Assembly (NCBI RefSeq): GCF_003367375.1
Contig: NZ_CP031416.1
Span: 2,673,501 to 2,737,500, forward strand
DNA length: 64,000 bases
Direction of reading: 5' to 3'
Source: Gallaecimonas mangrovi
GTDB lineage: Bacteria > Pseudomonadota > Gammaproteobacteria > Enterobacterales > Gallaecimonadaceae
The notes beneath the pieces are model-generated. The model was not told the origin of the DNA. It saw nothing but the letters and a program-made list of their open reading frames with translations, and ran no database searches. The position numbers were made by a program, and so were the translations under genes. Positions 53,170 to 57,250 of this stretch are shown here, piece after piece. Each line of letters starts with the position of its first letter. The stretch's first letter is position 1.

Positions 53170-55755
<2,586 letters not shown>

Positions 55756-55764
55756 GGACTGGAT

Positions 55765-56222
55765 ATGCGCTGGCTTGTGCTTTCAATGATGTTGCTGCTG
55801 GGGGCTGTGGTTTTCACCTCCAGGGTAGCTATGAAATGCCCCAAAACTACAAAGCGGTAACCCTCACCAGCTTTGACCAGTACGCCGACATCACCAAGGA
55901 AGTGGCGAAAAGTCTGACCGCTCGCGGCGTTGATATTGCCGCCAAGGGCCCTGAGATCCATCTGGTAAAAGACCAGTTGGATCGTCAGGCGCTGAGTTTG
56001 TTCAGCACCGGCCAGGTAGCGGAGTATGAATTGGTGTATACCCTGACCTGGCAAATTATCCAAAAGGGTAAAGACCCCGAGGATAAAACCATTGAAGTAC
56101 GCCGCGACTACCAAGACGACCCGACCAAACTGCTGGCCAAAGACCGGGAGCGGGAATTGTTGGTTCAGGAAATGCGTAAAGAAGCCGCCGACCGCCTGGT
56201 TCGCCAGCTGGCTCAGGGCTAA
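55765..56222 (+). pseudogene. lptE: LPS-assembly lipoprotein LptE with a one-base frameshift
   Basis: LptE plugs the LptD barrel in the outer membrane and is normally essential. ATG 55765, preceded by AAGGA, begins MRWLVLSMMLLLG in one frame. From the G run at 55800-55804 the family sequence GCGFHLQGSYEMPQNYKAVTL continues in the -1 frame up to the stop at 56222. One extra G (six instead of five) would join them into a normal lipoprotein with lipobox LGGC and about 152 residues. As written, the first frame stops after 31 codons and the second frame has no good start with a ribosome site (first ATG at 55836 lacks the signal peptide). Sequencing or assembly error in a homopolymer is the simplest explanation; slippage or true mutation are alternatives. 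Confidence 0.85.
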
Positions 56223-57250
56223 TGCAGATCCGCGCCCAGCAACTTAGCGAGGCGCTCAAACGCCAGCCCCAATGGGTGCTGGTGTTCGGGGATGACCCTT
56301 TCTTGGTGGAAGATGCCCTGAATAAGGTACGCGGCTACGGCCGCCAATGGGGCGTTGAAGAACGCTTGAGTTTTACCGTTGAAGGCGGCTTTGACTGGGC
56401 AGTGGTGCGCGAAGAGTACCAAAGCTTGTCATTGTTCGCCTCGCGGCGGCTTATCGAAATCAACCTGCAGCAAAAGCCGGATGAGTCCGGCAAAGCACTA
56501 TTGCAGGAACTCACCCAACACCCAAACCCAGACGTATTGTTGGTGCTGCGCGGCCCGCGCGCCGAAAAAGCCATGACCAATGCCGCCTGGTTCAAGGCCA
56601 TGAACGAGCAAGGCATTTATCTGCCAATTTACCCGCTTAATGACCGCGAATTTCCCGGTTGGCTGGCAAGACAGCTGCAAGATGCCGGCTTTAAAGCAGG
56701 CAACGAGGCGGTGCAAGCGTTAGCGCACTTTACCGAAGGTAACTTGCTGGCCGCCGCCCAAGAAGTGGAAAAACTCACCCTGCTCTACCCCGCAGGCCCC
56801 CTAACCGAAGAAGACATCAATAACGCGGTGCTAGACCACGCCCGTTATGACCTTTTTCAGTGGACCGATGCGCTGTTGGGCAATGATGCCGCCAAAGCGT
56901 TAAGGGTTCTCACCCGGGTTGTCGAAGAAGGCACAGAGCCACCGCTATTGCTTTGGGCCCTTGGCCGCGAGCTCGACACCTTACTGGCATTGGCAACCTC
57001 GGGAAATCCCCAGGCAGAACTTGGCAAAAGGCGCTTGCCGCCGCACCGCAAAGGCCTTTACTTAGGGGCGCTAAAACGACTACCGGCCGGGCGTCTGCGG
57101 CAAATTGGCCGCCATTTAGCCTGGCTTGACCAACACTTTAAAACCCAAGATGGCAGCGATATTGTTCAGGGCTTTCAGGATTTAACCTTGGCGTTCTTCC
57201 CAGGAGTTCGCCCGCCGCTGCCGGTTATTCGTCCGGAGTATGCATCATGA
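56222..57250 (+). CDS. holA: DNA polymerase III subunit delta
   Basis: Clamp-loader subunit that opens the beta clamp; 342 residues as in E. coli (343). It has the AAA+-like folds without a Walker A: LVFGDDPFLVEDALNKVRG, the clamp-binding helix region (EYQSLSLFASRRLIEI, about 60-75), and the C-terminal collar domain. ATG overlaps the lptE stop by one base (TAATG). Conserved order leuS-lptE-holA-nadD. Confidence 0.95.
   Translation: MQIRAQQLSEALKRQPQWVLVFGDDPFLVEDALNKVRGYGRQWGVEERLSFTVEGGFDWAVVREEYQSLSLFASRRLIEINLQQKPDESGKALLQELTQHPNPDVLLVLRGPRAEKAMTNAAWFKAMNEQGIYLPIYPLNDREFPGWLARQLQDAGFKAGNEAVQALAHFTEGNLLAAAQEVEKLTLLYPAGPLTEEDINNAVLDHARYDLFQWTDALLGNDAAKALRVLTRVVEEGTEPPLLLWALGRELDTLLALATSGNPQAELGKRRLPPHRKGLYLGALKRLPAGRLRQIGRHLAWLDQHFKTQDGSDIVQGFQDLTLAFFPGVRPPLPVIRPEYAS

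Follow-up and report, generated by a model that had tools for sequence, protein, structure and literature searches.

The question raised by lptE is whether the cell itself lacks a functional reading frame for this lipoprotein of LPS export or whether a base is lacking from its published genome. In the window, i.e. the whole stretch of 64,000 nucleotides of the Gallaecimonas mangrovi chromosome that was analysed, the recorded gene does not join signal peptide, lipobox Cys and LptE body in a single frame, and the break falls in a run of five G residues at positions 55800–55804. The parts of lptE and both neighbouring genes lie on the forward strand. The frame opened by the lptE ATG (55765–55860; 31 codons) begins MRWLVLSMMLLLGAVV..., resembling a signal peptide, continues into out-of-frame codons and ends at the stop at 55858–55860; it was read directly from the sequence, and its start and first residues align with those of intact lptE genes of the same genus. 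The mature part (55806–56222) lies in a second frame; it begins with the lipobox Cys codon and terminates at the stop at 56220–56222, within a stretch of 160 codons open from 55740 to 56222. Thus, the signal peptide and the CGFHLQGSYEMP continuation are in different frames, as the original prediction had it. Rescue by an alternative start was considered and rejected: upstream of the Cys codon at 55806, the second frame offers none of ATG, GTG and TTG back to the nearest stop, and use of the earliest listed start in that frame, the ATG at 55836, which is 3' of the lipidation site, would forfeit the lipidated Cys.

The neighbouring genes are both intact. Upstream is an 860-codon open reading frame (53173–55755), annotated as leuS in similar records; downstream, the list of open reading frames gives a gene at 56222–57250, which we take to be holA. 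The ATG of the latter overlaps the lptE stop as TAATG, as read from the sequence, and such stop/start overlaps commonly serve translational coupling; the early stop at 55858 would disturb any such coupling.

The identity of the interrupted gene is well defined. The LptE body matches Pfam PF04390 with 68.1 bits (cut-off, 23) over profile positions 1–118 of 118; among the NCBIfam models, too, LptE matches best, with a score (93.6 bits) below the cut-off of that model (235). It is the single LptE match in the whole genome (4,071,977 bases, one contig), and a second lptE copy that might act as a backup was rejected on the basis of this profile search. Among the related genomes, 55 of 59 contain an LptE above the family cut-off, and in all four genomes of the same genus (G001–G004) the CGFHL motif is in frame with the signal peptide. 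Nucleotide and frame-aware alignments, including those with the nearest relative, G001, place the window one base short of the four intact genes exactly at the G run, confirming the single-base deficit that had been proposed for 55800–55804. Over the 138 codons compared with G001, the body carries 20 differences at the first, 14 at the second and 56 at the third codon position, with 83% identical residues. This bias towards the third position shows that the lptE body is, or until very recently was, under purifying selection as a protein.

The four rrn operons carried by this chromosome provide an internal control of the quality of the assembly. Their copies (L071, L072, L073 and L074 on G000:C1, this genome) differ in length at six sites in the 16S and at eight sites in the 23S genes, and all 14 differences fall in runs of G or C. 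The shorter form is carried by 2, 1, 2, 2, 1 and 3 copies across the six 16S sites (11 of 24 copy-sites). The 16S copies of the same genus have the longer length at five of the six sites, with the exception of a single copy of G004 at alignment column 210, and at the sixth they are also longer, with a different base. For example, one 16S copy is without a G in GAATTGACGGGGGCCCG, where the other 14 of 15 aligned same-genus copies have five. Among the 23S sites, column 1417 gives no clear polarity; the short form at column 853 is shared by all four copies, both relatives being longer there. For comparison, the six 16S copies of G002, a complete genome of the same genus, show no internal length differences. 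In G004, with five copies, two such differences occur, and a single copy (L134) carries both, being one base short at two G runs; the G004 assembly may carry similar errors. Copy L071 also has substitutions near 16S alignment column 1144. Since the independent loss of G or C in several copies is biologically implausible, the differences among the rrn copies are, as judged from their sequences, the fingerprint of long-read consensus errors surviving in repeats.

Whether unique coding DNA is affected as well was addressed by aligning, with frame changes allowed, 464 genes predicted in 772 kb of G001 to 890 kb of the present genome (169,793 aligned residues); the genes surveyed correspond to about a fifth of the genome, namely, the stretches syntenic with two G001 contigs. 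The comparison yielded 36 frameshift events in 30 of the 464 genes, 21 of which passed a filter requiring 60% identity on both sides of the event. True shifts were sorted by eye from over-extensions of start codons, with family searches for the five genes so retained, that of an asmA-family gene making use of 362 of its 710 residues. Of the events that passed, 13 were judged to be over-extensions or non-coding or shadow frames, two to compensate each other within a single frame (C1_67210_69354), one (C5_291991_293007) lies outside these classes, and five were judged to be real internal frameshifts in family-confirmed genes, one each in lptE, copA (for a copper-exporting ATPase), recD, recX and the asmA-family gene. 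With respect to G001, each of the five looks like a loss on the side of this genome. Those of recD and recX are single-base losses sitting cleanly at C/G runs, that of copA adjoins a C6 run within a diverged stretch, and the asmA-family frameshift apparently consists of two short losses; the copA-like, recD, recX and asmA-family sites lie outside the window, near positions 3093371, 3353109, 2942834 and 3294047 of G000:C1, respectively. They are probably errors of the same kind as that in lptE. In-frame nonsense codons were absent from the 464 genes compared with G001, which speaks against real decay, a process that should also generate them. In the reverse direction, 27 events were found in 24 of 476 genes, with 15 passing the filter, and none was judged by eye to be a clear break of an identified G001 gene; those that passed include the two events of the compensating pair C1_67210_69354, C5_291991_293007 and one transposase-like frame. 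An open frame near position 2740392 of G000:C1, also outside the window, has its N-terminal region frame-shifted with respect to G001, either because the gene is truly broken or because its start was set wrongly.

Taken together, these data make it highly probable (approx. 90%) that the lptE frameshift is an artefact of genome assembly and not a real biological feature, in agreement with the sequence error favoured by the original prediction. With this assumption, the chromosome would carry lptE in its usual intact form, and the G run in the region coding for the signal peptide and the lipobox would have lost one base during base calling or in the consensus, as is typical of the errors that remain in long-read bacterial assemblies; the base would then be missing from the record rather than from the cell. 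This conclusion draws its strength from the fact that the same assembly drops single G or C bases in its rRNA copies and in a few conserved genes. Some observations temper it. The unique sequence is fairly clean: the 464 genes yielded five coding frameshifts, a per-base rate far below that of the rrn operons, so that one would not expect beforehand to meet an error at any particular site. Furthermore, polishing is subject to special conditions in repeats, and errors in rRNA genes do not by themselves prove that errors exist in unique DNA; and, among the four other frameshifted genes, only recD and recX present the loss cleanly at a C/G run. The low rate of frameshifts in unique DNA suggests that the assembly was probably polished, in which case lptE would probably be one residual error.

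The best surviving alternative, albeit an improbable one, is a real and recent loss of one base, in which case the strain would do without a lipidated LptE or would rely on a poorly positioned protein started at the ATG at 55836. The still open body frame fits a recent event, an ATG-started open reading frame is listed at 55836, and, according to PMC7204523, Pseudomonas aeruginosa can grow, and Neisseria meningitidis can transport LPS, without LptE. LptE is, therefore, not strictly required in every species, and essentiality alone is a weak argument for a sequence error: the conclusion initially drawn from the requirement for LptE stands, but mainly on other grounds. The hypothesis of a true mutation, however, has to be reconciled with the pattern of base losses of this very assembly, in the rrn operons as in other genes, with the lack of another LptE that could take over, with the selection evident in the body, and with the conservation of the gene among the relatives, intact in all four same-genus genomes compared. 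It must also account for lptD and lpxC, each found as one open frame scoring above its family cut-off. Their integrity indicates that the LPS pathway is retained, and a loss of this pathway as the background of the lptE lesion was accordingly ruled out.

Less probable still is a programmed or tolerated slippage, with RNA polymerase or the ribosome slipping by one base on the five G residues, so that part of the product would be full-length LptE. In its favour, a GGG codon slipping back by one base on GGGG would fully re-pair and enter the LptE frame. However, a plain G run is absent from this position in the alignment of all four same-genus genomes, giving no hint of a slippery site that has been kept, and reading of the sequence revealed no classical X XXY YYZ site. 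The downstream RNA (55806–55885) folds no better than its shuffles (z-score, −0.11), and no RNA family scored above its gathering threshold between 50000 and 60000. Thus, of the two features expected of programmed −1 frameshifting, namely, a slippery site conserved in G001–G004 and a downstream structure, neither was found, and five bases do not make the long homopolymer that is typical of transcriptional slippage or of phase-variable runs. Across many genomes, selection against slippage-prone runs is evident at about nine bases, according to PMC1088944, a paper that deals with A and T runs only. The 890 kb examined contain 253 G5, 375 C5 and 24 G6 runs, so that a five-G run by itself is unremarkable in this genome and, as a signal, unspecific. 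By taking into account also the lack of an upstream start in the body frame, the slippage on GGGGG that had been envisaged is unsupported. It is equally hard to credit that the cell truly carries five G and makes LptE only via slippage, with recoding setting the LptE level. Finally, phase variation of the LPS surface through changes in the length of the G run during replication, also raised initially, is unsupported and has a very low probability: placing a G run close to the 5' end of a surface gene is a known design for phase variation, but this run is short, is not conserved in the relatives and is one of hundreds, with nothing that singles it out, and LptE acts as a core factor of assembly, not as the product of a surface-decoration gene.

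The consequences are mainly practical. Other apparent frameshifts in this genome are suspect until they are checked against the reads, and the rRNA copies of this assembly are unsuitable for fine comparison. Were the frameshift true, instead, it would imply life with an unlipidated or recoded LptE.

When compared with known systems, the locus has the traits of a standard LptE lipoprotein (PF04390), as shown by the full-length profile match, the lipobox Cys and the position of leuS upstream, from which it departs in that the signal peptide and the mature part are recorded in separate frames. The comparison with the errors of long-read sequencing goes further. Residual long-read errors are described as mostly homopolymer insertions and deletions, which survive polishing in repeats (PMC8812927), and one nanopore assembly had its highest count of deletion errors following four to five identical bases (PMC12007338). 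The match with such homopolymer deletions is drawn from the pattern of errors alone, rather than from the sequencing platform or polishing of the record, and it extends to several of its aspects: the same type of error recurs elsewhere in the assembly, at 14 of 14 rrn sites and in recD and recX; single bases are lost from G or C runs, leaving frameshifts in otherwise intact conserved genes; and, as in such long-read assemblies, errors are far more numerous in the rrn repeats than in unique DNA.
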